64,000 nucleotides of DNA from Arthrobacter koreensis (lineage in GTDB: Bacteria; Actinomycetota; Actinomycetes; Actinomycetales; Micrococcaceae): contig NZ_WACG01000001.1 in assembly GCF_009193255.1 (NCBI RefSeq), positions 806,001 to 870,000 on the forward strand. Direction: 5' to 3'. This document shows positions 30,039-59,640 of this stretch, one piece after another. The notes under the pieces are model-generated. The model searched no databases and was not told the DNA's origin. It saw nothing but the letters and a program-made list of their open reading frames with translations. Made by a program: the position numbers and the translations under genes. Each line of letters starts with the position of its first letter. Within the stretch, counting starts at the first letter, position 1.

Positions 30039-30092
30039 GCGGAGCGCCTGCCCCGGAACCGTGCCCGGGGCAGACGTGCGCGGCTGGCCGTT

Positions 30093-31352: not shown

Positions 31353-31371
31353 TCCTCCTTGTGGACATTCT

Positions 31372-31656
31372 TTAATCGGGGCGGGGAAGCTTCCGGTGGA
31401 GCGGATTCCGGGTAATCCCGGAAGACGGGAGCCGCCCGCCCGGGGAGGAAACCACGGCAGGAACAGACGCGCTGCGGGCCGTACTCTCGATGAGTTGATA
31501 GGCGCTGGAGGACGCGCGTGACAGGTTAGGGGCGGTGAATCTCCGTGGTGCCGGGGCCCCGCAGTCCGGGCATGGTTCCGCATCCCGGACGCTGCCCATG
31601 GGTGACTGGACCTCAAAGACCGAGCAGTCCATGCACCGGTACGCGTACAGCGGCAT
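31372..31656 (-). CDS. fmdB: FmdB-family zinc-ribbon protein
   Basis: A 94-residue protein with the FmdB zinc ribbon: MPLYAYRCMDC at the start, Cys8/Cys11 and Cys29/Cys32 (PCPDCGAP). The rest is a low-complexity tail. FmdB was described as a positive regulator of formamidase expression. The ATG has GAGAGGTGA 4 bases upstream and fmdA follows after 19 bases. A perfect 15-bp palindrome lies 55 bases upstream of the start. Confidence 0.88.
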   Translation of the reverse strand: MPLYAYRCMDCSVFEVQSPMGSVRDAEPCPDCGAPAPRRFTAPNLSRASSSAYQLIESTARSASVPAVVSSPGGRLPSSGITRNPLHRKLPRPD

Positions 31657-31710
31657 TAGTCACCTCTCTGCGGGCATTTCTTCCGGGCCCGGTTCCGTTT
31701 ACGGATACAT

Positions 31711-31725
31711 TCCAGAAATTCTGGA
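31711..31725. promoter_or_regulatory. Candidate operator upstream of fmdBA
   Basis: TCCAGAAATTCTGGA is a perfect odd palindrome (7-base arms) in the intergenic region between fmdB and the divergent SDR gene. No regulator gene adjoins it. Confidence 0.4.
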
Positions 31726-31936
31726 CCCCGGGCCTGAATAGTTTCCGAAAAACCAAACGGCGATTGTTTCACACCCTAATGACGGCTCCTCATAAAGGTC
31801 AATGGTTCGTGCTGCCCGGCACTTTTGCCGAGTGCTGCGGTGGAACCTGGACGAGCCTTGACACCTCCCGGAGGCCGGCGCAGACTCAGGCCCTCCGGCA
31901 GCCGAGTCCGGACGGCGAACAGCGAAGGGGATGCCC

Positions 31937-32722
31937 GTGAGTACCTATCCGGCACCGGCAGCAGGCGGTCCTGGCCGCCTGGCGGGGAGGAGGGCAGTAG
32001 TCACCGCGTCCAGCCGCGGTATTGGGCTGGCCATAGCGCACCGTCTTGTGGACGAAGGTGCCCGCGTGCTGATCACCGGCAGGGACGCGGCTGCGCTTGG
32101 CGAAGCAGCTGCGGGATTCCCGGAGGGAACGGTGCTGGCCGTCTCCGGCAACGCGTCGGATCCGCTGCACCAGCGGGGCGTGCTGGACGCGGCGGCCGAC
32201 GGGCTGGGAGGCCTCGACATCCTCGTGAACTGTGCCGGGACCAACCCCGTCTACGGTCCGCTGCTGGACCTGGATCTGGACGCGGCGCGGAAGATCCTGG
32301 AGACGAACCTGCTTACCACCCTGGCCTGGGTGCAGGCAGCCTGCCGCCATCCGGCCGCCGGATTTCTCGGCGGCGGAGCGTCGGTGGTGAACCTCTCCTC
32401 GGTGAGCGCGCGGACTGCGGCGAGGGGGATCGCGTTCTATGGCATCAGCAAGGCCGCATTGGAGCACCTCACCCGGTCCCTCGCCGTCGAGCTGGCACCG
32501 GCGGTGCGCGTGAATGCGCTGGCACCCGCCGTCGTCCGGACGCGCTTCTCCCAGGCCCTCTATGAGGGGCGTGAGGAGAAGGCTGCGGCCGCCTATCCGC
32601 TTGAACGGCTGGGCACCCCGGAGGACGTCGCGGCGGGAGCAGCGTTCCTGGCTTCCGACGACGCGGCGTGGATCACGGGCCAGGTGCTGACGCTCGACGG
32701 CGGACTGCTGGGCGGCGGTTAG
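31937..32722 (+). CDS. Short-chain dehydrogenase/reductase (SDR)
   Basis: A classical SDR of 261 residues from GTG 31937. It has SRGIGLAIAHRLVDEG (cofactor loop written TASSRGIG in place of the common TGxxxGIG), ILVNCAGTNPVYGP, the Ser of NLSSVSART and YGISK (Tyr-x-x-x-Lys). It closely resembles the SDR at 52500-53282 (shared blocks GTPEDVA and TGQVLTLDGGLL). GAAGGGG ends 6 bases before the GTG but touches an ATG at 31931, so I prefer the GTG. The substrate is unknown. Confidence 0.85.
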   Translation: MSTYPAPAAGGPGRLAGRRAVVTASSRGIGLAIAHRLVDEGARVLITGRDAAALGEAAAGFPEGTVLAVSGNASDPLHQRGVLDAAADGLGGLDILVNCAGTNPVYGPLLDLDLDAARKILETNLLTTLAWVQAACRHPAAGFLGGGASVVNLSSVSARTAARGIAFYGISKAALEHLTRSLAVELAPAVRVNALAPAVVRTRFSQALYEGREEKAAAAYPLERLGTPEDVAAGAAFLASDDAAWITGQVLTLDGGLLGGG

Positions 32723-32740
32723 CCTTCCCGCGGCAGCCGG

Positions 32741-33778
32741 TTACGGGACGATGACGGCGCGGCCCAGCAGCTGGTTGTTCTTCAGCTTCTCGTACGCAGA
32801 CGGTGCATCATCGAGCGAGAAGACCTCGGTGTGCACCCGGATGTTTCCGCTCCGGGCGAGGTCCAGGACTTCGAACAGCTCGGAGCGCGAACCCCAGTAC
32901 GGTGAGCGCACGGAGACGTCCCACGCCGCTCCGGAGACCAGCCCCATCTTCAGGTTTCCGGCGCCGGCGCCCAGGAGCACATGGTCGCCCTGGTGGCGCA
33001 CCATTGCCTGGCCCAGGTCCAGGGTGGCCTGGTTGGCTACGAAGTCGAAGACGGCGTCTACACCCAGGCCGTTGGTCAGATCGCTGACCATGGTCGCGGC
33101 GCCGGCCTCGGACGGGAAGGTGTACTGCGCGCCGACGTCGCTGGCCAGGTTCAGTTTTGCCTCGTCGATGTCCAGCGCAACCACCGTGGCGCTGGTAAGT
33201 GCCCGCAGGATCTGGATGGCCACGTGGCCAAGCCCGCCAACGCCAATCACAACCGCCGTGGCCCCTGAGTGCAGCTTCTCCAGGGATCCCTTAATCCCGT
33301 GGTACGGAGTAAGGCCGGCGTCGGTGAGGGAAACATTCCTGACCGGATCCAGGTCCCCCAGCGGCACGAGGTGCCGGGCACTGTCCACAATCATGTATTC
33401 CGCCATGGAGCCCGGTGCACCCAGCCCGGGAGGAGTGATGCCGTACGTGCCCGCGTTCCGGCAGTAGTTTTCCCGGCCGGAGGAGCATTCGTAGCAGAGG
33501 CCGCATCCCCACGGTCCGTAGACGGCCATTGACTGGCCCTCCTCGATGTACTTCACCCCCTCGCCGATCTTGTCCACGATCCCTGCACCCTCATGGCCGA
33601 GGGTCAGCGGCAGCCCGTAGACATACTCGCTTTCAGGGAGGGACATGATGTATTCGTCGGAGTGGCACACTCCGGCGGCCGTGACCTTGAGCCGCACCTG
33701 TCCCGGCCCGGGCTCCGGGGTGTCGATTTCCACTACTTCGGGGGCTTGGCCAATGCTGCGGTATTGAAGGGCCTTCAT
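32741..33778 (-). CDS. Zinc-dependent alcohol dehydrogenase (MDR family)
   Basis: A 345-residue medium-chain dehydrogenase. Catalytic zinc ligands are Cys38 and His62 (GVCHSDEY, LGHEGAG); the structural zinc Cys set is 92, 95, 98 and 106 (WGCGLCYECSSG...NYC). The NAD fold has VIGVGGLGHVAIQ, with Asp-Ile-Asp after it (VALDIDEAKL), which favours NAD over NADP. AGGAG lies 8 bases before the ATG at 33778. It converges on the SDR gene with 18 bp between stops. The substrate is not determined. Confidence 0.88.
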   Translation of the reverse strand: MKALQYRSIGQAPEVVEIDTPEPGPGQVRLKVTAAGVCHSDEYIMSLPESEYVYGLPLTLGHEGAGIVDKIGEGVKYIEEGQSMAVYGPWGCGLCYECSSGRENYCRNAGTYGITPPGLGAPGSMAEYMIVDSARHLVPLGDLDPVRNVSLTDAGLTPYHGIKGSLEKLHSGATAVVIGVGGLGHVAIQILRALTSATVVALDIDEAKLNLASDVGAQYTFPSEAGAATMVSDLTNGLGVDAVFDFVANQATLDLGQAMVRHQGDHVLLGAGAGNLKMGLVSGAAWDVSVRSPYWGSRSELFEVLDLARSGNIRVHTEVFSLDDAPSAYEKLKNNQLLGRAVIVP

Positions 33779-33912
33779 GGCATGCTCCTGTCTCCGCACC
33801 GGCAGATCCTGCCCGCACGGGTGGATGGATTTGCCCTTTCATCGTTGCACCGTTGGGCTGATTACACAGCCCCGCAGCGCAGCGCACGGCGGCCCGGAGG
33901 CCACCTTAGGGG

Positions 33913-34014
33913 CTATCCGAAGAGCGCTGCCGCCTTGGTCAGGGTCTGGAAGACACCGTAGGCGAGGGGAATGCCGACCAGCAGCCAGCTAAAGGTCAGT
34001 TTCAGGTTGCTCAT
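33913..34014 (-). CDS. MFS transporter small subunit (33 residues)
   Basis: A 33-residue reading frame starting MSNLKLTFSWLLVGIPLAYG and ending AAALFG, with one hydrophobic helix. Its ATG overlaps the stop of the OFA transporter gene by 4 bases (ATGA at 34011-34014). Tiny membrane proteins with this N-terminal pattern are found next to OFA-family transporters and are annotated as MFS transporter small subunits. It is too short for most gene finders. Confidence 0.82.
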   Translation of the reverse strand: MSNLKLTFSWLLVGIPLAYGVFQTLTKAAALFG

Positions 34015-35447
34015 CGCGTGCCTTCCTCAAGGGGTTCGCTTGCATTGGGGTCCCGGGCCGGATTCTCGTCCGCCGCTTCGGACGCATGATCCTTGCCGGG
34101 CTCGTGGTACTTCGTGGCCACCGGCTTGATCAGCAGGTTGGCGATGAACCCCACGATCAGCAGTCCCACCATAGTCAGCAGCGCCGGCTGGTATGCCTGG
34201 GCGGTGAGTTCGCCGGGAGTGCCCTGCGCATCCAGGAAAGAGTTGACGATCAACGGACCGGCGATGCCCGCAGCAGACCAAGCGGTGAGGAGGCGGCCGT
34301 GAATTGCACCGACCTGGAACGTGCCGAAAAGGTCACGCAGGTAGGCCGGGACGGTGGCGAATCCGCCGCCGTAGAAGGAGAGGATGATGAAGGCCAGCAG
34401 CACGTACAGGATGGTGGACGTGGAGCCGAACAGGGCCAGCAGTACGTAGCACGCGGCACCTGCACCCAGGTAGACCATGTAGATGCGTTTGCGGCCGATC
34501 AGGTCCGAGGTGGCTGACCAGACAAACCGGCCGCCCATGTTGCCGATCGAGAGCAGTCCCACGAACCCGCCGGCGACGGCCGCCGTGACCAGGGAGGCGC
34601 CGTCGGGCTCCCGGAAGAAGTCCTGGATCATGGGTGCGGCCTGTTCCAGGATGCCGATTCCCGCGGTCACGTTGCAGAAGAGCACAATCCACACCAGCCA
34701 GAACTGGCGGGTCTTGATGGCGTTGGACGCCGACACGTTGGCGTTGGTGACCAGAGGTTTCCTGGCGACGGTGGCCGGATCGAATCCCTTGGGCTTCCAG
34801 TCATCCGCGGGCACGCGGATAGTCCATGCCCCGTAGAGCATATAGACGAGGTACACGATTCCGAGGGTCAGGAACAGCTTGCCGACGGCGTCGCCGCTGG
34901 CCACCCAGCCGGGGTTCCCTGAGTCCGGATCATAGAAGGCCAGCAGGGCCGAGGAAAGCGGGCTGGCGATAAGGGCGCCGCCGCCAAATCCCATGATCGC
35001 CATGCCTGTTGCCAGGCCTGGACGGTCCGGGAACCATTTGATCAGCGTGGACACCGGCGAGATGTAGCCGATGCCAAGTCCAATACCGCCCAGGAATCCG
35101 TAGCCCACGTACACCAGCCACAGCTGTCCGGTGAAGATGCCCGCGGCGCCGACCATAAAACCACCGGACCAGAAAAGCGCCGAGACGAACATGGCCTTGC
35201 GCGGACCGTTGCGGTCCACCCAGGTGCCCATGACCGCGGCCGAAAGACCGAGCATCACGATGGCGATGGAGAAAATCACGCCAATCTGGGTGAGGCTCGC
35301 GTCGAAGTACTCCACCAGGGCTGTCTTATAGACGCTCGTCGCGTACGCCTGTCCGATGCAGAGGTGAACGGCGAGTGCGGCAGGAGGAATGAGCCATCGG
35401 TTGAATCCGGGCGGGGCAATTATGCGGTCTCGGTCCAGCCAGCTCAT
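34011..35447 (-). CDS. OFA-family MFS transporter (oxalate/formate antiporter-like)
   Basis: A 478-residue, 12-helix transporter. OFA landmarks: ALAVHLCIGQAYATSVYKTA at the first helix, GYGFLGGIGLGIGYISPVST, LIKWFPDRPGLATGMAIMGF, and NMGGRFVWSATSDLIGRK in the second half. A charged tail of about 35 residues follows. Relatives exchange oxalate, formate or other carboxylates. The ATG at 35447 has GGGAGA 6 bases upstream; an in-frame start 18 bases earlier is less likely. The 33-residue partner gene overlaps its stop. Formamidase nearby would make formate, but a link is speculation. Confidence 0.87.
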   Translation of the reverse strand: MSWLDRDRIIAPPGFNRWLIPPAALAVHLCIGQAYATSVYKTALVEYFDASLTQIGVIFSIAIVMLGLSAAVMGTWVDRNGPRKAMFVSALFWSGGFMVGAAGIFTGQLWLVYVGYGFLGGIGLGIGYISPVSTLIKWFPDRPGLATGMAIMGFGGGALIASPLSSALLAFYDPDSGNPGWVASGDAVGKLFLTLGIVYLVYMLYGAWTIRVPADDWKPKGFDPATVARKPLVTNANVSASNAIKTRQFWLVWIVLFCNVTAGIGILEQAAPMIQDFFREPDGASLVTAAVAGGFVGLLSIGNMGGRFVWSATSDLIGRKRIYMVYLGAGAACYVLLALFGSTSTILYVLLAFIILSFYGGGFATVPAYLRDLFGTFQVGAIHGRLLTAWSAAGIAGPLIVNSFLDAQGTPGELTAQAYQPALLTMVGLLIVGFIANLLIKPVATKYHEPGKDHASEAADENPARDPNASEPLEEGTR

Positions 35448-35820
35448 CTGTTCTCCCAATCTCACCCAGCACAGTCATTGGCCGGCCGGTGCCGCCAGGG
35501 CAGCACCGGCCTGTGCGCCCCAGCCTTGTCGATGCCTGGGGATACGGGGGCCTCGACACGCCGTAAATTGCCGGATCATATGCGCGACAGGGCCGCAACC
35601 TACCCGCGGGTAACTAATTTTGAAAAACCCTTGCTTTGTTACCAATCAGTAAGTTAGATGTAACCGACATCACATTCCTACTGTCCGGTAACCACCGTTC
35701 GTGACACTCCATGACACGGGGGAACTACCCGGCAGCGCACCACGAAGGCGGAGCCCACAGGCGTACTCCCGCCGTTGAAGCGGTCTCAAGACCGAAGTTG
35801 AATCAGAAAAGGGATATTCA
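35448..35820. other. 373-bp divergent promoter region with several dyads
   Basis: It separates the OFA transporter from the heptad-repeat gene. I see a 9-base-arm hairpin GGCCGGTGC...GCACCGGCC at 35484-35511 in the transporter leader, a perfect 12-bp palindrome TACCCGCGGGTA at 35601-35612, and TTACCAATCAGTAA (TTAC-N6-GTAA) at 35639-35652 inside an AT-rich promoter-like stretch. No gene or RNA is recognised. Confidence 0.5.
35639..35652. promoter_or_regulatory. TTAC-N6-GTAA dyad in the promoter of the heptad-repeat gene
   Basis: TTACCAATCAGTAA lies in an AT-rich stretch 170 bases upstream of the start at 35821. Short dyads of this form are typical of TetR-like repressors. No such regulator is adjacent. 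Confidence 0.35.
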
Positions 35821-48662: not shown

Positions 48663-48720
48663 TCGAGATGACAGAAACTGCCCGTATGAGCGCTCATACG
48701 GGCAGTTTCTGTCATCTCGA
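48663..48720. repeat. 58-bp perfect palindrome, family A copy 2
   Basis: Positions 48663-48691 are the exact reverse complement of 48692-48720. The arms contain GATGACAGAAACTGCCCGTA; the same 20 bases differ from copy 1 only at the fourth position (GATG against GATA). It lies between convergent stops (48643 and 48741). Confidence 0.9.
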
Positions 48721-48740: not shown

Positions 48741-50051
48741 CTACGCGTCCTTGAGGTCGATTCCCTTGGTCTCGGGCATCAGCCACACTGCGACGGCGGT
48801 GCAGCCGCAGAGGATCATGATGTAGACGCTGGACATCCAGCCCACGTTCCACTCGATCAGCTGGGCGTTCAGGTACGGAGCCGTGCCGCCGAAGACCGCC
48901 ACCGAAACCGAGTAGGCGAACCCGATGCCCTGGGTGCGCACCTTGGTGGGAAAGTTCTCGGACAGGGTCGCCGAGAGCAGGGCTCCGGGAATAGCGACGA
49001 CGACGAGCGCCAGTGACGACGCGGCCAGCAGGGTCCACGGAGCGGAGCTGATCAGGCCCATTAGCGGCAGCTGCAGCAGGATCATCAGTCCTGCAAAGGC
49101 CAGCATCAGCGGACGGCGGCCCACTGAATCCGAGAGCCGCCCCCAGAACGGCAGCGAAACAAGGGCAATCAGCTGCGCGGTGACGGACATCCAGTACGCC
49201 GAGGCCGCCGGCATGTCCTGCTGGGTGATCGCGTAGGTCGACGCATAGGAAGTCCAGGTGTAGTGCGCGGCCGTGATGCCCGAGGTCATGGCGATCATCA
49301 GCAGCACGGCCCGGACAATCTGCCGGCGCGGCAGGGGTTCCTGCGCGGACGCACCGGCGGTCGCGGCAGCGGCGTCGTCGAACACTTCGCTTTCAACCAT
49401 GCCCTTGCGCAGGTACAGTGCGGCGAGCGCCAGGAAGGCACCCAGGATGAACGGAATCCGCCAGCCCCAGTCGGCCACGGCGCTTTCCCCCAGTACAGCG
49501 GTCACGGACCCGCCCACGGTGTACGCGAGGATTGACCCGGCAAAGATCGCCACGAACACGATGCTGCCCCACATGCCGCGGCGGTTGTGCGGAGCGATTT
49601 CGGCGATGTAGGTGTTGGCCGTGGCCGACTCACCTCCGTGCGCGAAGCCCTGGCCAATCCGTGCGGCCAGCAGGATCACCGAGGCCCAAACGCCAACCGT
49701 CTCGTAGCTGGGCATCAGCCCGATCACCAGGGAGCCGCCGGCCATCATGAGCATGGTGGTGATCAGCACAAATTTGCGGCCCCGGCGGTCGGCGACCCGG
49801 CCGAAGACGATGCCGCCAAGCGGGCGCATGAGGAAGCCGACGGCGAAGACGGCGAGGGTTGAAAGCAGCGCCGAGACCGGGTCATCCGGGTTGAACATCG
49901 CCGCGGCGATGAACGGGGCGAAGACCGCGTAAGCGCTCCATTCGTACCACTCCAGGATGTTGCCGGCCGTAGTGGCCAGCAGGGACTTCTTCTTACCTGC
50001 GGTGGCTGATGCCGGGCGTGCCGGAACGGCAGCCGAAGGCTGTGCAGACAT
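48741..50051 (-). CDS. MFS transporter, metabolite:H+ symporter type (KgtP/ShiA-like)
   Basis: A 436-residue 12-helix transporter of the MHS family: AGNILEWYEWSAYAVFAPFI, RPLGGIVFGRVADRRGRK, GQGFAHGGESATANTYIAE and the second-half GRLSDSVGRRPLM. Relatives import dicarboxylates, shikimate or other organic acids with protons. It is downstream of the acyl-CoA ligase/SDR/dehydrogenase/kinase genes on the same strand, so it is a candidate importer for that pathway. AAAGGAG lies before ATG 50051. A degenerate palindrome sits between it and the kinase gene and may limit read-through. Confidence 0.87.
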   Translation of the reverse strand: MSAQPSAAVPARPASATAGKKKSLLATTAGNILEWYEWSAYAVFAPFIAAAMFNPDDPVSALLSTLAVFAVGFLMRPLGGIVFGRVADRRGRKFVLITTMLMMAGGSLVIGLMPSYETVGVWASVILLAARIGQGFAHGGESATANTYIAEIAPHNRRGMWGSIVFVAIFAGSILAYTVGGSVTAVLGESAVADWGWRIPFILGAFLALAALYLRKGMVESEVFDDAAAATAGASAQEPLPRRQIVRAVLLMIAMTSGITAAHYTWTSYASTYAITQQDMPAASAYWMSVTAQLIALVSLPFWGRLSDSVGRRPLMLAFAGLMILLQLPLMGLISSAPWTLLAASSLALVVVAIPGALLSATLSENFPTKVRTQGIGFAYSVSVAVFGGTAPYLNAQLIEWNVGWMSSVYIMILCGCTAVAVWLMPETKGIDLKDA

Positions 50052-50084
50052 GATGGCTCCTTTGCCAGTGTTGCATCGGGGTGT

Positions 50085-50150
50085 CCCATCGACATGGCAG
50101 AAACTGCCCATTTGACGCCCGATACGGGCAGTTTCTGTCATCTCGATGGG
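50085..50150. repeat. 66-bp degenerate palindrome, family A copy 3
   Basis: Left arm 50085-50117 and right arm 50118-50150 carry the family A core (CAGAAACTGCC and GGCAGTTTCTG) and match at the ends (CCCATCGA and TCGATGGG), but the centre is not paired and two inner positions differ. It starts 34 bases upstream of the transporter ATG and ends 12 bases past the kinase stop. Confidence 0.85.
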
Positions 50151-50161
50151 GGGGGACGGGG

Positions 50162-51253
50162 CTAGCTCCTCCGCAGGGTTTCGGCGGCTGATTCCAGCAG
50201 CAGCGGGACACCTTCTTCGAGGGTGGGTCCGAAGGTGTCCCCGGGGCGTTCGCCCTTGAGGTACCGCGTGTAGATCGCTTCGCAGAAGATGGCGGATTTC
50301 CACAGCGCCAGTGCCTGGTACCAGGGCAGGGCGCTGACATCGAGTCCGGTTCGGTCCGCGTATCCGGCCACCAGCTGGTCCCTGCTCCAGTAGCCGGGCT
50401 GCTTGGTGACAGAGGTCAGGTCCATCACGGTGGACTCGGCACCGGGTTCGGAGTAGGTGGCGGCGAGGTACCCAAGGTCCGCCAGCGGATCGCCCAGGGT
50501 TGCCATTTCCCAGTCCAGGATCCCCGTTACCGTTGCCGGCTGCTGCCGCCCGAACATCAGGTTCCCCAGCCGATAGTCGCCGTGCACCACCGAAGCGCGC
50601 TGGGACGCCGGCACACTGGCCCCCAGTTCCTGGGCGACCTGCTCCACGAGCGGCACATCGCGCAGGGTGTTTGCCTCCCAGAGCCCGGCGAAGCGCCTGA
50701 CCTGCCGTTCCAGGTATCCCTCGGCCCGGCCCAGCCTGGAAAGCTCCGGGCCGGTGACGTCCACGCTGTGCAGCCGGGCAAGGGTTTCGACGACGGCGCG
50801 GCTGATGTCTCCGCGCTGCTCCGGGGTATCCAGGTGCTCCGGGGCTGATCCGGTAATCACGTGCCCGTCCAGGTAGGACATGACGTAGAACGGCACTCCG
50901 AGCAGGGTTTCGTCGCTGCAGACCGCCAGGATCTGCGGCACCGGGATCCCTTCGGCGCCGAGCAGCTGCTGGACCCTGGCTTCGCGCACCATGTCATGCG
51001 TGGACCGGGGAAGCGGCGGACGCGGGCCTCGCCGCAGCACGAACGATTCGCCGCCGCGGATGATCCGGTAGGTGATGTTGGACTGCCCGTCGCCGATGCG
51101 TTCCCAGGCGAGGTCCCCGCTGCCGAGTCCGTGCGCGTCCAGGAAACCGGCGACGGCGTCCAGCACCAGCAGCGGCGGCCGTTCGAGTGCGGCAGCCTGA
51201 GAACCGGTGGAGACAACTTCAGTCCCGTCCGCAGTGGTCTGCAGCCGGCTCAC
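50162..51253 (-). CDS. APH-type phosphotransferase (LvaA/ACAD10-11 kinase-like)
   Basis: A 363-residue protein kinase-like fold of the aminoglycoside phosphotransferase family. The substrate clamp region starts ERIGDGQSNITYRI, a Lys-type ATP contact is replaced by FVLRRGP, the catalytic loop is VHGDYRLGNLMF and the metal site ILDWEMATLGDPLADLGYL. Such proteins next to acyl-CoA dehydrogenases phosphorylate 4-hydroxyacyl-CoA in the ACAD10/11 and Lva pathways. GTG 51253 overlaps the dehydrogenase stop (GTGA), so the two are coupled. It is not expected to confer antibiotic resistance. Confidence 0.85.
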   Translation of the reverse strand: MSRLQTTADGTEVVSTGSQAAALERPPLLVLDAVAGFLDAHGLGSGDLAWERIGDGQSNITYRIIRGGESFVLRRGPRPPLPRSTHDMVREARVQQLLGAEGIPVPQILAVCSDETLLGVPFYVMSYLDGHVITGSAPEHLDTPEQRGDISRAVVETLARLHSVDVTGPELSRLGRAEGYLERQVRRFAGLWEANTLRDVPLVEQVAQELGASVPASQRASVVHGDYRLGNLMFGRQQPATVTGILDWEMATLGDPLADLGYLAATYSEPGAESTVMDLTSVTKQPGYWSRDQLVAGYADRTGLDVSALPWYQALALWKSAIFCEAIYTRYLKGERPGDTFGPTLEEGVPLLLESAAETLRRS

Positions 51254-52500
51254 CGCTCCTGCTCCCCGCGGACGACGGCGTCGCCCTGGTAGGGCGCCCC
51301 GGCTTCCACTTCCCGCCGCCGCCGGGCCGAAGCCCGCCGCGAGATGGCCCACTTATGGGTCTCATTCGAACCGTCGTAGATCCGGAAGGGACGCACTTCG
51401 TTGAGGTACTGGGCCAGCGGCAGCCCGTCGGAAACCCCGTCCCCGCCGCACAGCTGCACGCAGCGGTCAATCACCCGGTACACGGCTTCGGAGCAGTGCA
51501 CCTTGGCCACCGAGGACAGGGCAGAGCCGGCCTTCGCATCCGCTGCCAGCAGGTCCGCCGTGCGGGTGATGATCGCGGCCGAGGTTTCGATGTCGATCAC
51601 GCTCTGCGCTATGAGCTCCTGCGCCAGTCCCAGTTCGCTGATGCTTGAACCGAAGATTTCCCGTTTCCCGGTGCGGTCCAGCGCGATGTCCAGCGAGCGC
51701 CTGGCCAGTCCCAGCCAGCGCATGCAGTGCGTCAGCCGGGCCGGACCGAGCCGCACCTGGGCATATTTGAAGCCCAGCCCCACTTCGCCGAGGACCGCCG
51801 AGTCCGGCACCGCGCAGTCCTCCAGGTACACGTGCGGGTGGCCGCCGCCGATGGTCCGGTCGATCGTGTGGATGTGCTCCCCCACGCGGATGCCCGGGTT
51901 GTCCATGTCCACCAGGAACATGGTGGCACCGGCGGGGGCATCGCCGTCGGCCTCCGTCCGGGCCATGACAATGCAGAACCCGGCGCCGATCGCACCGGAG
52001 GTGAACCGCTTATGGCCGTTGATCAGCCAGCCGTCCCGGTTCCGGCGGGCGGTGGTCTGCAGAGCGTCCGGGTCCGACCCGGCGCCCGGGTGCGGTTCGG
52101 TCATGCCGAAACAGGACCGGACGTCCCCGGCCGCCAGCGGTGCCAGGTACTGCTGCTTTTGTTCCGGCGTGCCGATGAGCTCGAGCATGTGCATGTTGCC
52201 CTCATCCGGCGCCATGCAGTTCAGGGCGGTGGGGCCGATCGGTGAGTAGCCGGCCTCCTCGAAGATTTCCGGCCAGTCCTGCAGCGGCAGCCCCTGGCCG
52301 CCGTACTCCACGGGCACGTGCGGGGCGAAGACGCCGGCGTCCTTGGCTGCCTGCTGGAGGCGGGCACGCTCGGACTCGGTCAGCGCCTGGCCCGGCACCG
52401 GCTCGGCGGGCATCACCACCTCCCGGATAAACGCACGTGTACGCCGGCGCAGGTCCGCCACGGCTTCGCGGCCGGGGGCAGTGTGGGCGGGCGCGCCCAT
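51250..52500 (-). CDS. Acyl-CoA dehydrogenase (LvaC/ACAD10-11-like)
   Basis: A 416-residue dehydrogenase: FAPHVPVEYGGQGLPLQDW, CFGMTEPHPGAGSDPDALQT, NGHKRFTSGAIGAGF and C-terminal IYDGSNETHKWAISR. At the place of the classical general-base Glu (YEG) there is Asp (YDG), as in ACAD10/11-type enzymes. It would remove phosphate from a 4-phosphoacyl-CoA and yield the 3-hydroxy/2-enoyl-CoA. The ATG overlaps the SDR stop by one base (TGATG), and its own stop overlaps the kinase start. Reaction by inference from the gene set. Confidence 0.85.
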   Translation of the reverse strand: MGAPAHTAPGREAVADLRRRTRAFIREVVMPAEPVPGQALTESERARLQQAAKDAGVFAPHVPVEYGGQGLPLQDWPEIFEEAGYSPIGPTALNCMAPDEGNMHMLELIGTPEQKQQYLAPLAAGDVRSCFGMTEPHPGAGSDPDALQTTARRNRDGWLINGHKRFTSGAIGAGFCIVMARTEADGDAPAGATMFLVDMDNPGIRVGEHIHTIDRTIGGGHPHVYLEDCAVPDSAVLGEVGLGFKYAQVRLGPARLTHCMRWLGLARRSLDIALDRTGKREIFGSSISELGLAQELIAQSVIDIETSAAIITRTADLLAADAKAGSALSSVAKVHCSEAVYRVIDRCVQLCGGDGVSDGLPLAQYLNEVRPFRIYDGSNETHKWAISRRASARRRREVEAGAPYQGDAVVRGEQER

Positions 52501-53282
52501 CAGGCGGTACCTCCCGCTGCAAGCAGGCCGCCGTCGAGCGTCAGGACCTGCCCGGTGACCCAGGAAGCGTCCGGGGAGACCAGGTAGGTCACCGCAGAAG
52601 CGACGTCTTCGGGGGTGCCCAGCCGGCCCAGCGGATAGGCGCTGGTGACGGCGTCTTCCTTGCCTTCGTAGAGGGCCCGCGAGAAGCGGGTCTTCACTAC
52701 CGCCGGCGAAACGGCATTGACGCGGATCTCCGGGCCAAGTTCGACGGCGAGGGACCGGGTCAGGTGCGAGACCGCTGCCTTGCTGATGCCGTAGAGCCCG
52801 ATTCCGGGTGAGGGAGTGTCGCCGGAGACTGAGGACAGGTTGACGATTGTTCCGCCGCGTTCACGGAATCCGAGCCCGCTGTGCACCACGGTGTCCTGCA
52901 CCCAGGCGAGGGTGCCCAGGACGTTGACCTCGAAGATCTTCCGGGCCGCTTCAAGGTCCATCTCCACCAGCGGTCCGAAGACCGGGTTGATGCCGGCGTT
53001 GTTGACCAGGATGTCCAGCCCGCCGAACTCCTTGGCCACGGTGTCCAGTACGTCGGCACGGTGCACCGGGTCATCTGACGCCCCGGCGACGGCGATGGCG
53101 CTGCCGTCCGGAAACTGTGCGGCGGCTTCCTTCAGCGCGTCGCTGCGCCGGGCCGTAAGGCAGACCCGCGCGCCCTGGGAGACGAGGTCCCGGGCAATGG
53201 CGAGCCCGATCCCGCGGCTGGCGCCGGTGACGATTGCTGTTTTTCCTTGGAGTTTTCCTTGGAGCCCACGGTCAGTTGCCAC
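52500..53282 (-). CDS. Short-chain dehydrogenase/reductase (LvaD-like)
   Basis: A 260-residue classical SDR: TGASRGIGLAIARDLVSQG, NNAGINPVFGPLVEMDL, NLSSVSGDTPSP (catalytic Ser) and YGISK. In an Lva-type pathway it would reduce a 4-oxoacyl-CoA to the 4-hydroxyacyl-CoA. GTG 53282 follows AAGGAAGGATG; its coding start lies 3 bases after the ligase stop. It closely resembles the SDR at 31937-32722. Confidence 0.86.
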   Translation of the reverse strand: MATDRGLQGKLQGKTAIVTGASRGIGLAIARDLVSQGARVCLTARRSDALKEAAAQFPDGSAIAVAGASDDPVHRADVLDTVAKEFGGLDILVNNAGINPVFGPLVEMDLEAARKIFEVNVLGTLAWVQDTVVHSGLGFRERGGTIVNLSSVSGDTPSPGIGLYGISKAAVSHLTRSLAVELGPEIRVNAVSPAVVKTRFSRALYEGKEDAVTSAYPLGRLGTPEDVASAVTYLVSPDASWVTGQVLTLDGGLLAAGGTA

Positions 53283-53285
53283 GGA

Positions 53286-54941
53286 TCATCCTTCCTTTGG
53301 GGTCTCGCGCAGTTCCCGGCGGCGGATCTTGCCGGTCTGCGTCTTGGGCAGGTCATCGATCACGTGCACGGACCGCGGGTATTTGTAGGCGGCCAGGCGT
53401 TCCCTGGTGAAGGCGATCAGTTCTTCTTCGGTGGCCGCCTGACCGGATTTCAGGGACACGTACGCGACGACGGTTTCGCCCCGGTATGCATCTGGCATCC
53501 CGACGACGGCGGCTTCGTAGACGGCCGGATGTTCGTACAGCACGTCCTCCACCTCGCGCGGCCACACCTTGTAGCCGGAGACGTTGATCTGGTCTTTCAT
53601 CCGGTCAACGATGTACACCCAGCCGGACTCATCCATGGTGGCCACGTCGCCGGTGCGCAGCCGGCCGGCAGGCATGGTTCGGGCGGTTGCTTCGGGGTTG
53701 TTCCAGTACCCGGGGACGATCTGCGGTCCGGCGAGTTCGAGTTCTCCCTGTTCCCCGGCCGGCAGCGGATTCCCGGCCGCGTCGATGATGCGGGCAGTGA
53801 CGTTGGGCAGCGGAAGCCCGATGGAGAGGCTGCCGCTGGCCGGATCCACCGGTGCCTGCACTCCCGGCGGAACACCGATGACGGCAGACGTTGTTTCGGT
53901 CATGCCGAAGATGTTGTGGATATAGGCGCCGAACCGTTGCTGGAAGGACTCAACCGTGGAGGGCGGGATGGGAGCACCGCCGGAGTAGAGGGTTTTGGCG
54001 GAGGCGAAGTGCTCCGCTCCGGCATCCGGGAGCTGGTAGATGGCGTTGAAGACGGTGATGGAACCGGTGGTGCAGGTGACCCGGTGTTCGGCAAAGGCAT
54101 CCACCGCCACGGCCGGGTCGGTTCGGTTCACCATAACCAGCGTGGTGTCCGTGAGCAGCGGCGCAGCGGCGTCGATCACGGCGCCGGTAATGTGGAACAG
54201 CGGTGCGACGGCAAGCACTGTGTCCCCGGGAGCCAGCCCCATCCAGGCCGAGCAGGTTGCCGCGACGTTGAGGATGTTGCCGTGGGTATTCATCGCACCC
54301 TTCGGCGCACCCGTGGTTCCGGAGGTATAGGCCAGCAGGGCGACGTCGTCCTGTGTGATGGTTAGCGGTGCCGGGGCGCGGCCGGTGAATTCGGCGATCA
54401 AGGCAGCCATGTCTCCGTCCGGGGACGGCGGCACCGGTTCCGCTGGCCCGAAGATGCGGGGATCGCAGCGGCTCTGGTACTCCAGGCCGGACGTGGTCAG
54501 GATCCACTCGACACTGGTTCCTGCGGCGGCCGCTGCCGTTGCCTGGTAGAGGGTGTCATCGGCGAGAATGCCCCGGGCGCCTGAGTCTTCGATCAGGTGC
54601 CGCAGTTCGCGTTCCTTGTACATGGGGTTCATCAGCACCGCGATGGCACCCAGTTTCCACAGCGCCAGGAAGGCGATCACGTACTGCGGAATGTTCTGCA
54701 GCTGGATGCCAATCCGGTCCCCGTGTCCGATCCCCCGGTTTTCGAGCGCGGCCGCGAAGGCATCGGAAAGCCCGTCGAGCTCCGCAGCGCTGATCCGGCC
54801 GTCAAAGTAGGCGACTGCTGTTCCGCCGGGGTTGGTCCGGACGCGGTCTTTCCACGCCGCCACCAGCGAAGGGGCCGCCACTTCCAGCCTCGTTGAGACT
54901 CCGGCTGGATAGGCACCGGCCCACGCCGGTGAGAGCGCCAT
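53286..54941 (-). CDS. AMP-dependent acyl-CoA synthetase (LvaE-like)
   Basis: A 551-residue ANL-family ligase: LAYTSGTTGAPKGAMNTHGN (AMP loop), HNIFGMTETTSAVIGVP, GELELAGPQIVPGYWNN, RLRTGDVATMDESGWVYIVD and the C-terminal KTQTGKIRRRELRE with the catalytic Lys. It forms an acyl-CoA from a carboxylic acid, ATP and CoA, and would activate the substrate of the operon. First gene of the minus-strand operon. GGAGG lies just 2 bases before ATG 54941; a GTG at 54950 has no Shine-Dalgarno. Confidence 0.88.
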   Translation of the reverse strand: MALSPAWAGAYPAGVSTRLEVAAPSLVAAWKDRVRTNPGGTAVAYFDGRISAAELDGLSDAFAAALENRGIGHGDRIGIQLQNIPQYVIAFLALWKLGAIAVLMNPMYKERELRHLIEDSGARGILADDTLYQATAAAAAGTSVEWILTTSGLEYQSRCDPRIFGPAEPVPPSPDGDMAALIAEFTGRAPAPLTITQDDVALLAYTSGTTGAPKGAMNTHGNILNVAATCSAWMGLAPGDTVLAVAPLFHITGAVIDAAAPLLTDTTLVMVNRTDPAVAVDAFAEHRVTCTTGSITVFNAIYQLPDAGAEHFASAKTLYSGGAPIPPSTVESFQQRFGAYIHNIFGMTETTSAVIGVPPGVQAPVDPASGSLSIGLPLPNVTARIIDAAGNPLPAGEQGELELAGPQIVPGYWNNPEATARTMPAGRLRTGDVATMDESGWVYIVDRMKDQINVSGYKVWPREVEDVLYEHPAVYEAAVVGMPDAYRGETVVAYVSLKSGQAATEEELIAFTRERLAAYKYPRSVHVIDDLPKTQTGKIRRRELRETPKEG

Positions 54942-54987
54942 GTCCTCCACTGTGTGCCTGCTTCCCTGTAATGGTTCCGCATCTACC

Positions 54988-55007
54988 TTGCGAGCGATCG
55001 CTCGGTA
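54988..55007. promoter_or_regulatory. TetR operator between the acyl-CoA ligase and tetR genes
   Basis: CGAGCGATCGCTCG (54991-55004) is a perfect 14-bp palindrome, with the flanks T and A also pairing at 54988/55007. It is in the divergent promoter region, 47 bases from the ligase start and 83 bases from the tetR start, where a repressor would control both. Confidence 0.75.
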
Positions 55008-55086
55008 GAAGTAGTGTGAAGAACGTCACAAGGTAGTGTCAACCCCCTTTGGCAACCTAATGTTTTTCCAAACACGAAGAGGTCCG

Positions 55087-55743
55087 ATGGCAAAAGCTGC
55101 TGCACAGGAACCGGCTCCCGGCTCCGCCCCCCTGCCCTCCGGCACCCCCGGCTGGCGGAATTACGATATGGATGACCTGCCGCCCATGCTGGCCAGCGCA
55201 CTGGAGTGCTTCATGGAGCACGGCTACCACGGCACCACCATCCGCCAGCTGGCCGCTCGGACAGGCTTGTCAGTTCCGGGCCTCTACCACTACTACCCCT
55301 CGAAGCAGGCGCTACTGGTAGCCATCGCCTCCCATGCCATGAACGATCTGTGGATTCGCAGCGAGCAGGCAATCGCCGAGGCCGGCGGCAACCTTTCCCG
55401 CCGGTTCGACCTGCTCGTCGAGTGCCTGGTGCTTTTCCACGCGCGGCGACGCGGCCAGGCCTTCATCGCTTTCAGCGAGATCCGCTCCCTGGAACCGGAC
55501 GCCCGCGCCGCCCACATCGCGGCCCGGGACCGGCAGCAGCGCCTCATGGACACGATCCTTGAAGAGGGAACGGCGGCGGGAATCTTCTCCGCACCGCACC
55601 CGCGTGAGGCGGGTACCGCCGTCGTCACCATGTGCACCGGGGTCGCACAGTGGTTCCGGCTGGACGGTGAGCTGACTCCGGAGCAGCTGGCCGAACGCTA
55701 CCGCACCATCGCCCGCATGGCCGTGGGGGCCAGGCCGGCCTAG
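55087..55743 (+). CDS. TetR/AcrR-family transcriptional regulator
   Basis: A 218-residue repressor-type protein. The N-terminal HTH is ALECFMEHGYHGTTIRQLAA followed by TGLSVPGLYHYYPSKQALLV, the TetR signature. The C-terminal ligand domain is helical. Divergent position and the palindrome at 54988-55007 suggest it represses the ligase-SDR-dehydrogenase-kinase operon and itself, with an acid or acyl-CoA as inducer. ATG 55087 has AGAGG 5 bases upstream. Its stop overlaps the stop of the convergent dioxygenase gene by 2 bases (55741-55742). Confidence 0.9.
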   Translation: MAKAAAQEPAPGSAPLPSGTPGWRNYDMDDLPPMLASALECFMEHGYHGTTIRQLAARTGLSVPGLYHYYPSKQALLVAIASHAMNDLWIRSEQAIAEAGGNLSRRFDLLVECLVLFHARRRGQAFIAFSEIRSLEPDARAAHIAARDRQQRLMDTILEEGTAAGIFSAPHPREAGTAVVTMCTGVAQWFRLDGELTPEQLAERYRTIARMAVGARPA

Positions 55744-56669
55744 GGAGCTGCCAGGGGTTCGGCGCCCGGACGGTCGCCGGCTGGGGGCTGCCCGCCGGGG
55801 CCTCCCGGCCCTCCGGAAGCTCCTCCTCCGGGAGCTCCTCCCGCGGAAGGCTCCGTGCGGGTGTCCACCGGGACGGCCAGGGTCGCTGAGTAGCCCTGGC
55901 CGACGCTGCCGGTGACCGTGCCCAGCTGGCTCGCACCGCCGTCGTCGCCAAACACGTTATCGCCTTCCAGCGTGACCCCGGACAGATTCTGCACCGAGGC
56001 CTCGTACCCGGAGGTGGCATAGACCGCGTTGCAGGCGTCCTCCGGAAGCGCCATCTGGGAGGTGGCAATGGCGTTGGCTGAATCGGTGATGGAAGCTTCG
56101 TCGGGGTAGACCTCGAAGTGGATATGCGGCCAGCGGCCCGAATAGCAGGCCGGGAAGATGCTGGTGAACCGGACTGCGCCGTCGCCGTCGGCAATCTGGA
56201 CCCCGCGGAGGTAGTTCTGGTCCTCCACACCCTCGGAGTACATCGAGTACAGCCCCTCCCGCGTGCAGTGCCACACGTAGACGGCCACTCCGGCAAAGGG
56301 AGCACCCCCGTTGGCCAGGTCCGTGACCTTCAGTTCCAGATCCAGGGGAATGCCCTCGGCGGTGCCGGAGGATTCGCCAAAACTGGAGCGGATATCGCTG
56401 CGGACAATGCCGCTTTGTTCCAGTACATCCGGACCATTGGATCCGTCGCCCGGATAGGGACCCGCTGTCTCATCGGGGATCTCCCCCTCCGCCCCGGCGG
56501 GTCCACCGCAGGCCGCAAGTCCAAAACCGAGGGCGCCGATGCCGAACACCTTCAGGACCTGCCGCCGCTGGAGGAGGGTCCCGACGTCGAATGGCAGGCC
56601 CTGGTCTTCCAGGTCCTCTTCCGGGCGGGGCAGCGGACGGCCCTGATAGGTGGCTTTCGGGTGCGGCAT
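55740..56669 (-). CDS. Secreted intradiol ring-cleavage dioxygenase-like lipoprotein
   Basis: A 309-residue protein. Twin-arginine signal with QRRQVLK at 34-40 followed by a hydrophobic stretch and lipobox LAAC (Cys54), so it should be exported folded and lipid-anchored. The dioxygenase beta-sandwich follows: GVAVYVWHCTREGLYSMYS and GRWPHIHFEVYPDEAS, which hold the Tyr and His iron ligands. The last 35 residues are Gly/Pro-rich (GGAPGGGASGGPGGPGG). Exported members of this family exist in streptomycetes and bind chitin or degrade aromatics; the substrate here is unknown. GAGGAGAACC precedes the ATG. Confidence 0.85.
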   Translation of the reverse strand: MPHPKATYQGRPLPRPEEDLEDQGLPFDVGTLLQRRQVLKVFGIGALGFGLAACGGPAGAEGEIPDETAGPYPGDGSNGPDVLEQSGIVRSDIRSSFGESSGTAEGIPLDLELKVTDLANGGAPFAGVAVYVWHCTREGLYSMYSEGVEDQNYLRGVQIADGDGAVRFTSIFPACYSGRWPHIHFEVYPDEASITDSANAIATSQMALPEDACNAVYATSGYEASVQNLSGVTLEGDNVFGDDGGASQLGTVTGSVGQGYSATLAVPVDTRTEPSAGGAPGGGASGGPGGPGGQPPAGDRPGAEPLAAP

Positions 56670-57421: not shown

Positions 57422-57465
57422 AGTTGTACCGCCGCATCAGTGCAGATGCTCCTGGAAGGAACGCA

Positions 57466-58623
57466 ATGACTGCCGTCTCGACCGATACTGGAATCAACAG
57501 CCAGACACAGAGCTCTACCACGTCCAAGGTGCTGGGCTACCCGCTGAATGCCTGGTACGTGGCTGCCTGGGACCACGAGGTGACCCGCAAGCCCATGTCC
57601 CGCCGGATCGCCGACCGCCCGCTGGCGCTCTACCGGACCGAGGACGGCAAGGCCGTAGCCCTGGCCGACGCCTGCTGGCACCGCCTGGCCCCGCTGTCCA
57701 TGGGCAAGACCACCGGACGGGACGGGATCCAGTGCCCGTACCACGGGATCGTCTACAACTCGGCGGGCCGCTGCATCTCCATGCCGGCCCAGGAAACCAT
57801 CAACCCCAGCGCCACGGTGCCCTCCTTCCCCGTGATCGAACGCCACCGCTACGTCTGGGTCTGGCTCGGCGACCCCACCCTGGCCGATCCGGACGCCGTG
57901 CCGGACATGCACCAGATGTCATCCGACGAATGGGCCGGCGACGGCGAGACCATCTTCGCGCCGTGCAACTACCAGTTGGTCCTGGACAACCTGATGGACC
58001 TCACCCATGAAGAGTTCGTCCACTCCTCCTCCATTGGCCAGGACGAGCTGAGCGAATCCGAATTCGTCGTCACGCATGACGACGACACCGTCACGGTGAC
58101 CCGCTGGATGCTTAACATCGATCCGCCGCCCTTCTGGCTCAAGAACATGCGGGACAAATTCCCCGGCTTTGAAGGCAAGGTGGACCGGTGGCAGATCATC
58201 ACCTACCGTGCGCCGTCGACCATCAACATTGACGTGGGCGTGGCGAAGGCAGGAACTGGCGCACCGCAGGGTGACCGCAGCCAGGGCGTGAACGGATTCG
58301 TCATGAACACCATCACCCCGGAGACGGCGAAGACCTGCCACTACTTCTGGGCCTTCATGCGCAATTACCGGCTGGACAGCCAGCTCATCACCACCCAGCT
58401 GCGCAACGGTGTCCACGGCGTCTTCGGCGAGGATGAGGAAATGCTCGCCGCGCAGCAGGCGGCGATCGACGCGAACCCGGACTACGAGTTCTACAACCTG
58501 AACATCGACGCCGGTGGCATGTGGGTGAGGCGGCTGATCGAACGCCGGCTCGAGGCCGAGGGACGCCGTCCGGACGGAAGCAGGCTCCCGTCCGGTGTCC
58601 GGCAGCGCGCGGCACTGGGCTAG
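57466..58623 (+). CDS. vanA: Vanillate O-demethylase oxygenase subunit (Rieske)
   Basis: A 385-residue Rieske oxygenase: cluster ligands Cys70, His72, Cys90 and His93 (CWHRLAPLSMG, CPYHG) and the mononuclear iron site in DNLMDLTHEEFVHSSSIG. VanA with VanB demethylates vanillate to protocatechuate plus formaldehyde, or works on a related methoxy-aromatic. ATG 57466 has GAAGGAACG upstream; a longer in-frame start at 57424 would overlap the operator. vanB follows after 3 bases. Confidence 0.9.
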   Translation: MTAVSTDTGINSQTQSSTTSKVLGYPLNAWYVAAWDHEVTRKPMSRRIADRPLALYRTEDGKAVALADACWHRLAPLSMGKTTGRDGIQCPYHGIVYNSAGRCISMPAQETINPSATVPSFPVIERHRYVWVWLGDPTLADPDAVPDMHQMSSDEWAGDGETIFAPCNYQLVLDNLMDLTHEEFVHSSSIGQDELSESEFVVTHDDDTVTVTRWMLNIDPPPFWLKNMRDKFPGFEGKVDRWQIITYRAPSTINIDVGVAKAGTGAPQGDRSQGVNGFVMNTITPETAKTCHYFWAFMRNYRLDSQLITTQLRNGVHGVFGEDEEMLAAQQAAIDANPDYEFYNLNIDAGGMWVRRLIERRLEAEGRRPDGSRLPSGVRQRAALG

Positions 58624-58626
58624 GCG

Positions 58627-59640
58627 ATGGCTGCAACAAATGTTGAGGCCTGGCAGCGCGCCGTCGTCCGGGAAACCCGGGACGTAGCGGAGGGCATCCG
58701 CCGCATTGTGCTGGTCCCCGGAGAACCGGTTCCGGCCGCGGCGGGAACCCATGTGGACGTCATGGTCACCATTGACGGCGAGAAGCACCGCCGCTCCTAC
58801 TCGATCGTTGAAGCGCACGACGGCGGCAGGGAACTGGCGATCAGCGTCTTCCGTACCGCGGCGTCCCGCGGCGGGTCGATCTTCATGCATACCCTGGCAC
58901 CGGGGGACGAGCTGGAGATTACCCAGCCGCTGCAGAACTTTCCGCTGCGCGTAGGTGCGCCGCGCTATGTCCTGCTGGCAGGCGGCGTGGGCATCACCGC
59001 CATCCTGAACATGGCCCGGGTCCTGAAGAACGTGAAGGCCGACTACCGTCTGGTCTATGCCGGACGGAACCGCAGCGCCATGGCCTACCTGGCCGAGCTG
59101 CAGGCCGAGCACGGTGACGCCCTTGAAATCCACGTGGATGCCGAAGGCAGTGCGCTGTCCGTTACGGAATTGGTCGCAGGGCTGCAGGACGGAACGGAAC
59201 TGTACATGTGCGGACCGATCCGCCTGATGGACGCGGTACGCCGGTCCTGGCGGGACCATGGCCTGGACCCCGCCAACCTGCGGTATGAGACGTTCGGCAA
59301 CTCTGGCTGGTACCGCCCGGAGGAGTTCATTGTGCGGGTGCCGCGGCTGGGACTTGAAACCCGGGTGGGGCCCGGACGGTCCATGCTCGAAGCCCTCGAA
59401 GACGCCGGGGCGGACATGATGTTCGACTGCCGCAAGGGCGAATGCGGGCTGTGCGAAGTGCGGATCCTGCAGCTGGAAGGCACCGTGGACCACCGGGACG
59501 TCTTCTACAGCGAACGCCAGCAGCGGGCCCGGGAGAAAATGTGCTGCTGCGTCTCGCGCGCCGTCACAGATCCCGCCGCAGAGCCTGGAACTTCCGGGCT
59601 CCGCGCCGGCCCCGCCGTCGTCACCATTGAGGTCTCCTAA
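58627..59640 (+). CDS. vanB: Vanillate O-demethylase reductase subunit (PDR/VanB family)
   Basis: A 337-residue reductase: flavin domain with HRRSYSIVEAHDGGRELAIS, NAD-binding domain with LLAGGVGITAILNMARVL and LYMCGPIRLMDAV, and a C-terminal plant-type [2Fe-2S] domain with DCRKGECGLCEVRILQLEG and a later Cys (EKMCCCVSRAV). It passes electrons from NADH to the VanA Rieske centre. It starts 3 bases after the vanA stop. Confidence 0.91.
   Translation: MAATNVEAWQRAVVRETRDVAEGIRRIVLVPGEPVPAAAGTHVDVMVTIDGEKHRRSYSIVEAHDGGRELAISVFRTAASRGGSIFMHTLAPGDELEITQPLQNFPLRVGAPRYVLLAGGVGITAILNMARVLKNVKADYRLVYAGRNRSAMAYLAELQAEHGDALEIHVDAEGSALSVTELVAGLQDGTELYMCGPIRLMDAVRRSWRDHGLDPANLRYETFGNSGWYRPEEFIVRVPRLGLETRVGPGRSMLEALEDAGADMMFDCRKGECGLCEVRILQLEGTVDHRDVFYSERQQRAREKMCCCVSRAVTDPAAEPGTSGLRAGPAVVTIEVS

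Follow-up and report, generated by a model that had tools for sequence, protein, structure and literature searches.

A probably TetR-controlled operon of Arthrobacter koreensis predicted to degrade small 4-hydroxy or 4-oxo acids by phosphorylation and phosphate elimination

Our analysis of a 64,000-nucleotide stretch of contig NZ_WACG01000001.1 (here, the window), part of the 3.55-Mb genome of Arthrobacter koreensis, points to a catabolic operon, induced by its substrate, that would break down a small 4-hydroxy and/or 4-oxo carboxylic acid. The acid would be phosphorylated by a kinase and the phosphate then eliminated by an acyl-CoA dehydrogenase (ACAD), under the control of a TetR-family regulator, and we assign this reading a probability of about 0.75. 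The gene set, the gene order, the active-site residues, a conserved operator and the co-inheritance of the genes are features of the sequence itself. The operon, which also encodes an oxidoreductase of the short-chain dehydrogenase/reductase (SDR) type and a metabolite:H+ symporter (MHS)-type transporter, comprises the following features in window coordinates.

55087 to 55743, plus strand: TetR-family regulator (Pfam TetR_N and TetR_C_24), divergent from the ligase gene; likely local repressor
54991 to 55004, no strand: putative palindromic operator CGAGCGATCGCTCG, core of the wider motif ACCGAGCGNNCGCTCGGT, between the TetR and ligase genes
53286 to 54950, minus strand: AMP-forming acyl-CoA ligase (Pfam AMP-binding); proposed role in acid activation
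52500 to 53282, minus strand: SDR oxidoreductase (Pfam SDR) with Y164xxxK present; putative 4-oxoacyl-CoA reductase
51250 to 52500, minus strand: ACAD of the ACAD11/LvaC class (Pfam Acyl-CoA_dh) with R250, R255, H258-C-M-R261 and the Asp base D376
50162 to 51253, minus strand: APH-fold kinase (Pfam APH) with R90-E91, R183, D226, N231 and D247; proposed 4-hydroxyacyl-CoA kinase of the LvaB-free kind
48741 to 50051, minus strand: MHS-type MFS transporter (Pfam MFS); proposed importer

Gene reading and Pfam searches confirmed the six genes named in the initial annotation, with five on the minus strand and TetR divergent across a palindrome, and the spacings given there for the first four genes were exact. 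A 3-bp gap separates the ligase and SDR genes, the SDR and ACAD genes overlap by 1 bp (TGATG), and the ACAD gene overlaps the GTG start of the kinase gene by 4 bp (GTGA). The MHS gene is attached more loosely, at a distance of 110 bp that holds a 40-bp palindrome. Its start is most likely the ATG at 50051; for TetR, the ATG at 55087 is more likely than the GTG at 55036. The best NCBIfam model for the MHS protein was TIGR00883 (346 bits, below its cut-off of 443), and the best models for the ligase were those of long-chain ligases, all below their cut-offs.

The core chemistry, C4-phosphorylation of a 4-hydroxyacyl-CoA followed by elimination of the phosphate, is well supported by residue comparison, because the ACAD carries R250, H258, R261 and D376, a set absent from four other ACADs of the same genome. 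In the available text of PMC12440821, R626, H634 and R637 of ACAD11 contact the 4-phosphate in a model, non-conservative substitutions of these residues are the most disruptive to the ACAD step, and D753 is the catalytic base. In our alignment, R250, R255, H258, R261 and D376 of the window ACAD occupy the positions of ACAD11 R626, R631, H634, R637 and D753. A plasmid-borne LvaC (RLAPARLTHCMRWLG and RIYDGPSEVH) is almost identical to the window protein (RLGPARLTHCMRWLG and RIYDGSNETH) in the same segments. Eight further ACAD matches were found in the A. koreensis genome, and none of the four that were checked combines the R/H/R set with an Asp base, the base there being Glu or Gly. Among the 41 related rows, defined as those with the window ACAD as best match (L039 and L095 are identical and one row is a fragment), all had the three basic residues, and every row but the fragment had the Asp (40 rows); the Cys differed in four. 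The best sequence matches in the PDB were ACAD11 entries, and the top fold match of the predicted structure (mean pLDDT of 82.5) was human ACAD11. An ordinary ACAD was rejected on the grounds of the Asp base in place of Glu and of the R/H/R helix.

The kinase shows a corresponding pattern. Its residues D226, N231, R183 and R90 align with ACAD11 D220, N225, R176 and the Arg beside the alpha-C Glu, the last of which is numbered R86 in PMC12440821, two off the present count, and was matched by description. The same source, in its available text, describes two arginines of the ACAD11 kinase as contacting the CoA part in a model, and R90 and R183 of the window kinase stand at their positions. R90, E91, R183, D226, N231 and D247 were present in all 44 related rows and the strict HGD pattern in 43; as for the ACAD, only rows with the window protein as best match were counted, and rows nearer to LvaA or LvaC were compared apart. 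The best PDB sequence matches were 9o56 and then ACAD11, and the predicted structure (mean pLDDT of 89.1) matched 3dxp, a 25-hydroxysteroid kinase and Rv3168, with ACAD11 at rank 14. The 25-hydroxysteroid kinase (PDB 9fsg), as described in the available text of PMC8449060, likewise has the APH fold and activates an alcohol so that it can be dehydrated at the expense of ATP, but its substrate is a steroid and the resemblance is one of fold and sequence only. Collectively, the published active-site residues and the nearest solved structures of the ACAD place the pair in the ACAD10/11-LvaC/LvaA reaction class, as had been proposed.

APH-fold kinases act on many substrates, and the nearest NCBIfam models of the window kinase are aminoglycoside kinases, as might be expected of an ordinary beta-oxidation cluster that happens to include an unrelated kinase. 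We consider such a cluster very improbable: those models reach 49 bits against a cut-off of 205, the ACAD shows the R/H/R set and no Glu base, and kinase and ACAD travel together across genera. An antibiotic (aminoglycoside) kinase was rejected because of the same low scores.

According to the pathway that we propose, the MHS protein would import the acid, the ligase would form its CoA thioester, and the SDR would reduce a 4-oxo to a 4-hydroxy group where needed. The kinase, holding the CoA by its own arginines, would then phosphorylate the 4-hydroxyl, and the ACAD, using FAD and its Asp base, would eliminate the phosphate to yield a 2-enoyl-CoA for ordinary beta-oxidation. TetR would repress transcription in both directions from the palindrome until released by the acid or its CoA ester. 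All activities in this scheme, together with the direction of the SDR reaction, import, the inducer and the chain length, we infer from the sequence.

The reference set for comparison with levulinate catabolism consisted of lva-type operons on plasmids of P. aeruginosa (pPA272, locus L045, with lvaB annotated) and Stutzerimonas stutzeri (L043). Like the lva operon of Pseudomonas putida KT2440, the window operon unites a ligase, an SDR, an APH-fold kinase and an ACAD with the RLxPARLTHCMR helix and an Asp base. It differs in having TetR instead of a PrpR/LvaR-type regulator, an MHS protein instead of the acetate-type symporter LvaFG, no LvaB, the order ligase-SDR-ACAD-kinase, identities of 27 to 45%, and a kinase with two arginines that LvaA lacks. 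Against pPA272, identity was 44.9% for the ACAD (LvaC), 33.6% for the SDR (LvaD), 33.5% for the ligase (LvaE) and 27.3% over 289 residues for the kinase (LvaA), and the ligase and SDR match LvaE and LvaD at the superfamily level. The claim that the enzyme set equals LvaE, LvaD, LvaC and LvaA therefore found no support, and the proposed kinship of the two central enzymes with LvaA/LvaC and ACAD11 held for the ACAD, and the kinase agrees with ACAD11 in its residues but is not of the LvaA type. A quickly built tree of ACADs, in which the outgroup branch is long, resolved three separate groups (LvaC, Rhodococcus/Georgenia and the window's), the window ACAD lying outside the LvaC group. The replacement of the sigma-54 regulator by TetR was borne out, no LvaR-type gene being present in the operon. 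Of the Lva/ACAD10-11-type pathway suggested initially, the phosphorylation-elimination mechanism was well supported by the residues and the gene neighbourhood. The lva label was not, given LvaB, the regulator, the transporter and the identity of ligase and SDR; filing the locus as an lva operon in the strict sense was rejected on these first three and on the kinase residues. The mammalian ACAD10 and ACAD11, as presented in the available text of PMC12440821 and PMC11342911, share the kinase, the phosphate-eliminating ACAD, the active-site residues and the lack of LvaB. In the window, kinase and ACAD are not fused but come from distinct genes that overlap, within a bacterial operon that includes a ligase and an importer.

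As the initial annotation stated, LvaB (DUF6285, PF19802) is absent: it had no match in any of the 29 genus genomes searched, that of A. koreensis included. Ten plasmid loci of the class were compared, and LvaB/DUF6285 lies beside the kinase in four (L043 to L046) and not in the other six (L039 to L042, L047 and L048). Because of these six loci, and because purified ACAD10/11 are described as active in the available text of PMC12440821, which makes no mention of LvaB, its absence here is no puzzle. The available text of PMC6692424 describes a cluster of P. citronellolis LA18T that also lacks LvaB. In the four kinases with an LvaB neighbour, two alignment settings both place Q/E at the position of R90 and Leu or a gap at that of R183, with the catalytic D and N retained; both arginines are present in the LvaB-free plasmid kinases of L041 and L047. 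The CoA-side arginines may explain why LvaB is dispensable here, a lead and not a proof, since the comparison with the LvaA kind rests on a low-identity alignment and the two kinds had been split beforehand by best match. Tentatively, and with less than even odds, bacteria may possess two kinds of 4-hydroxyacyl-CoA kinase, an LvaA kind that lacks the arginines and needs LvaB and an ACAD11 kind that has both and works alone. The operon would then be a pathway put together independently around a kinase of the ACAD11 kind and distributed through Actinobacteria under one TetR and one operator. A single ligase family would have teamed up with three sequence types of ACAD/kinase pair, and the natural substrates would be gamma-hydroxy acids derived from lactones or plant material, not levulinate.

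To follow the operon within the genus, we compared the window with 20 regions from 19 of the 29 genus genomes and found two locus types. Type A, with TetR divergent from ligase-SDR-ACAD-kinase-MHS, is complete in the window, in G004, which is Arthrobacter citreus DSM 20133 (L111/L051), and in G018; no MHS gene was seen at the type A locus of G014. Type B consists of SDR-ACAD-kinase, mostly with TetR, near a 659-amino-acid ACAD of the fatty-acyl kind and a zinc alcohol dehydrogenase. G018 carries both types, and G024 has type B plus TetR-ligase-kinase-MHS in another place. Genome G006 has SDR-ACAD-kinase without ligase or MHS, and the last ligase codons persist between operator and SDR (L049, 11050 to 11420). 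A deletion in G006 thus took out the ligase, sparing these codons and the operator and bringing the SDR under the same control region. The window itself holds a stripped type B copy 20 kb from the operon (28059 to 35465), in which the 659-amino-acid ACAD, a formamidase, an SDR, the zinc alcohol dehydrogenase and an MFS protein are kept and TetR, ACAD and kinase are missing; G001 and G012 are alike, and G011 is similar with more intervening DNA. Its SDR gene is the following feature.

31931 to 32722, plus strand: second SDR, matching the operon SDR at 62%; remnant of a sister locus without ACAD and kinase here

Other genera of the family also have complete type A operons (G126, G264 and G284; G199 has the MHS gene approximately 2 kb away, and in G062 none was seen). 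The ligase (E value of at most 1e-120) was found in 15 of 295 family genomes and lies within 2 kb of an ACAD match in 13 of these, the exceptions being G024 and G044. All 15 ligase-bearing genomes had the ACAD, compared with 41 of the other 280 (Fisher p of 2.7e-12, uncorrected for kinship). Mirror-tree correlations, likewise uncorrected, ranged from 0.73 to 0.94 for 15 gene pairs and were matched in 0 of 500 permutations each; duplicate loci (L111, L112, L118 and L095) and rows below 45% identity or 70% length had been left out. Many related loci carry a TetR homologue, usually transcribed away from the ligase or SDR gene, and some have none. With the order TetR/ligase-SDR-ACAD-kinase(-MHS) recurring in other genera, the operon is a conserved unit to a degree beyond chance. 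Its ligase-bearing form is probably the older one, because ligase-bearing members branch first within the family's ACAD group in the ACAD tree.

Beyond the family, a scan of genome contigs with the ligase alignment yielded 481 relatives, and the counts that follow refer to the 80 best. Within 7.5 kb, an ACAD with the R..R..xMR helix was present at 26 loci, the kinase motif at 29 and both at 25; an MHS homologue lay within 8 kb at 32. The ACADs fall into three sequence types (LTHCMR, MTHVMR and IHHxMR); that a single ligase family occurs alongside differing ACAD/kinase pairs speaks for a shared function. In 40 genomes searched from among those whose locus lacked the pair, an ACAD match was found elsewhere in every case (E value of at most 1e-50, a loose limit, with no ligase-free genomes as control), and 19 of the best 20 of these loci had both the ACAD and kinase motifs. 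At three Brevibacterium loci (L161, L165 and L167), kinase and ligase lie together with no ACAD motif within 7.5 kb.

Several observations weigh against the pathway as proposed. The pair is lacking within 7.5 kb at 55 of the 80 loci, some of them on short contigs, and the six genes are not an obligatory set, as the G006 locus and the split arrangement of G024 illustrate. Neither ligase nor SDR bears a residue-level mark of 4-oxo acids, and the 25-hydroxysteroid kinase stands among the first fold matches of the kinase, ahead of ACAD11 at rank 14.

The palindrome CGAGCGATCGCTCG between TetR and ligase is perfect over 14 bp, and the window site departs from the wider motif ACCGAGCGNNCGCTCGGT in the last bases. 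Loci of Streptomyces, Cryobacterium and Aeromicrobium, and further Arthrobacter loci, carry the full motif upstream of the ligase. The pattern CCGAGCGNNCGCTCG has one place in the A. koreensis genome, at the operon. Of the 29 genus genomes, 18 have it at such an operon. The 9 further places, in 9 genomes, look like background because a backward-pattern control also matches in 8 genomes. Since 0.8 chance occurrences of the operator core with up to two mismatches are expected in the window, the weight of the operator rests on its conservation. TetR is most likely a local regulator, because the operator sits at the operon, occurs once in its own genome and recurs upstream of the ligase elsewhere. 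A consensus promoter scan of the divergent region found none, and terminators did not rise above shuffles.

A short 4-hydroxy or 4-oxo acid is the likeliest substrate. MHS transporters usually carry small carboxylates, and the family favours small polar acids; taken together, the type of the transporter and the class of the ligase suggest an acid of small or medium size, while levulinate and other 4-hydroxy/4-oxo acids are not separable by sequence. A levulinate operon proper, for levulinate or 4-hydroxyvalerate as in Pseudomonas with ligase, transporter and regulator swapped, strikes us as doubtful. The enzyme classes are those of lvaA, C, D and E, the LvaC active site is nearly identical, and the transporter, best matched by TIGR00883 below its cut-off, belongs to a family of small-carboxylate carriers. 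Moreover, a methylcitrate operon is on hand for the propionyl-CoA that levulinate would give. Its prpC and prpB exceed the cut-offs, PrpD_hiGCgrampos scores 873 against a cut-off of 950, and the prpD model TIGR02330 gave only matches below cut-off in 29 of 29 genus genomes. The methylcitrate operon could serve as a sink for propionyl-CoA from a C5 acid; a methylmalonyl-CoA route was rejected, no mutase match being found in the A. koreensis genome. Low ligase identity does not speak against levulinate, as LvaE2 of P. citronellolis makes levulinyl-CoA at only 35% identity to LvaE according to the available text of PMC6692424. However, the operon contains no LvaB and no LvaR- or LvaFG-type gene, its ligase and SDR are not specifically close to LvaE and LvaD, and methylcitrate genes are general.

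Hydrolases near the ligase relatives in other orders would fit other acids. Among the best 80 of the 481 relatives, an MBL-fold hydrolase was found near the ligase at 6 loci and a cyclase-family hydrolase at 9 (Pfam was run on one member of each), which may hint at lactone or ester precursors. The same kinase-elimination chemistry could thus act on a longer, branched or aromatic gamma-hydroxy acid, derived for example from gamma-lactones or terpenoids; this is possible, though we would not favour it. Consistent with such a substrate, long-chain ligase models, albeit below cut-off, are the best for the ligase, and the sister SDR-ACAD-kinase loci adjoin the 659-amino-acid ACAD of the fatty-acyl kind. 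On the Rhodococcus plasmid locus L040, ACAD-kinase-SDR directly follows AtuA and acyl-CoA carboxylase genes, neighbours that hint at terpenoid-derived acids in that lineage. Nevertheless, the window operon has no hydrolase, its MHS transporter belongs to a family with a preference for small polar acids, and neighbours in other lineages may not transfer. The small 4-hydroxy and/or 4-oxo acid stays our preferred substrate.

The phosphorylate-then-eliminate route for 4-hydroxy acids has already been worked out for Pseudomonas and mammals; the chemistry is known, and the assembly and the lineage are new. According to the available text of PMC6692424, lvaABCD homologues occur in Alpha-, Beta- and Gammaproteobacteria. 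The terms "actinobacteria" and "actinobacter" are absent from the main text of PMC6692424, PMC11342911 and PMC12440821, a literature search on ACAD10, LvaC and actinobacteria found no paper, and no paper among the literature matches listed dealt with an actinobacterial operon of this kind. The available text of the Arthrobacter arilaitensis genome paper (PMC2991359) covers beta-oxidation genes and galactono-lactone use and not such an operon. The actinobacterial version described here is compact and brings along an importer, an activator and a predicted one-operator sensor, so that its substrate can be tested directly. The two arginines, in turn, offer an explanation, open to test, for the dependence of some of these kinases on LvaB and the independence of others.

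Next to the operon, at 55740 to 56669, lies a gene that converges on TetR and shares 4 bp with its end; the product is lipoprotein-like and has an intradiol dioxygenase domain at its C-terminus. This gene was not found in the G006 and G014 regions. Positions 57424 to 59640 hold a vanillate O-demethylase-like oxygenase and reductase pair adjoining a PadR-type regulator, named from sequence reading with no family search. Two palindromes lie around the MHS gene.

50098 to 50137, no strand: 40-bp imperfect palindrome, first copy, between the kinase and MHS genes; not operon-specific
48672 to 48711, no strand: 40-bp palindrome, second copy, beyond the MHS gene

This palindrome, CAGAAACTGCCC...GGGCAGTTTCTG with a variable and self-complementary middle, occurs at 26 places genome-wide, with a third window copy at 1124 to 1163. 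The MHS gene is thus bracketed by two copies, as it is in A. citreus.

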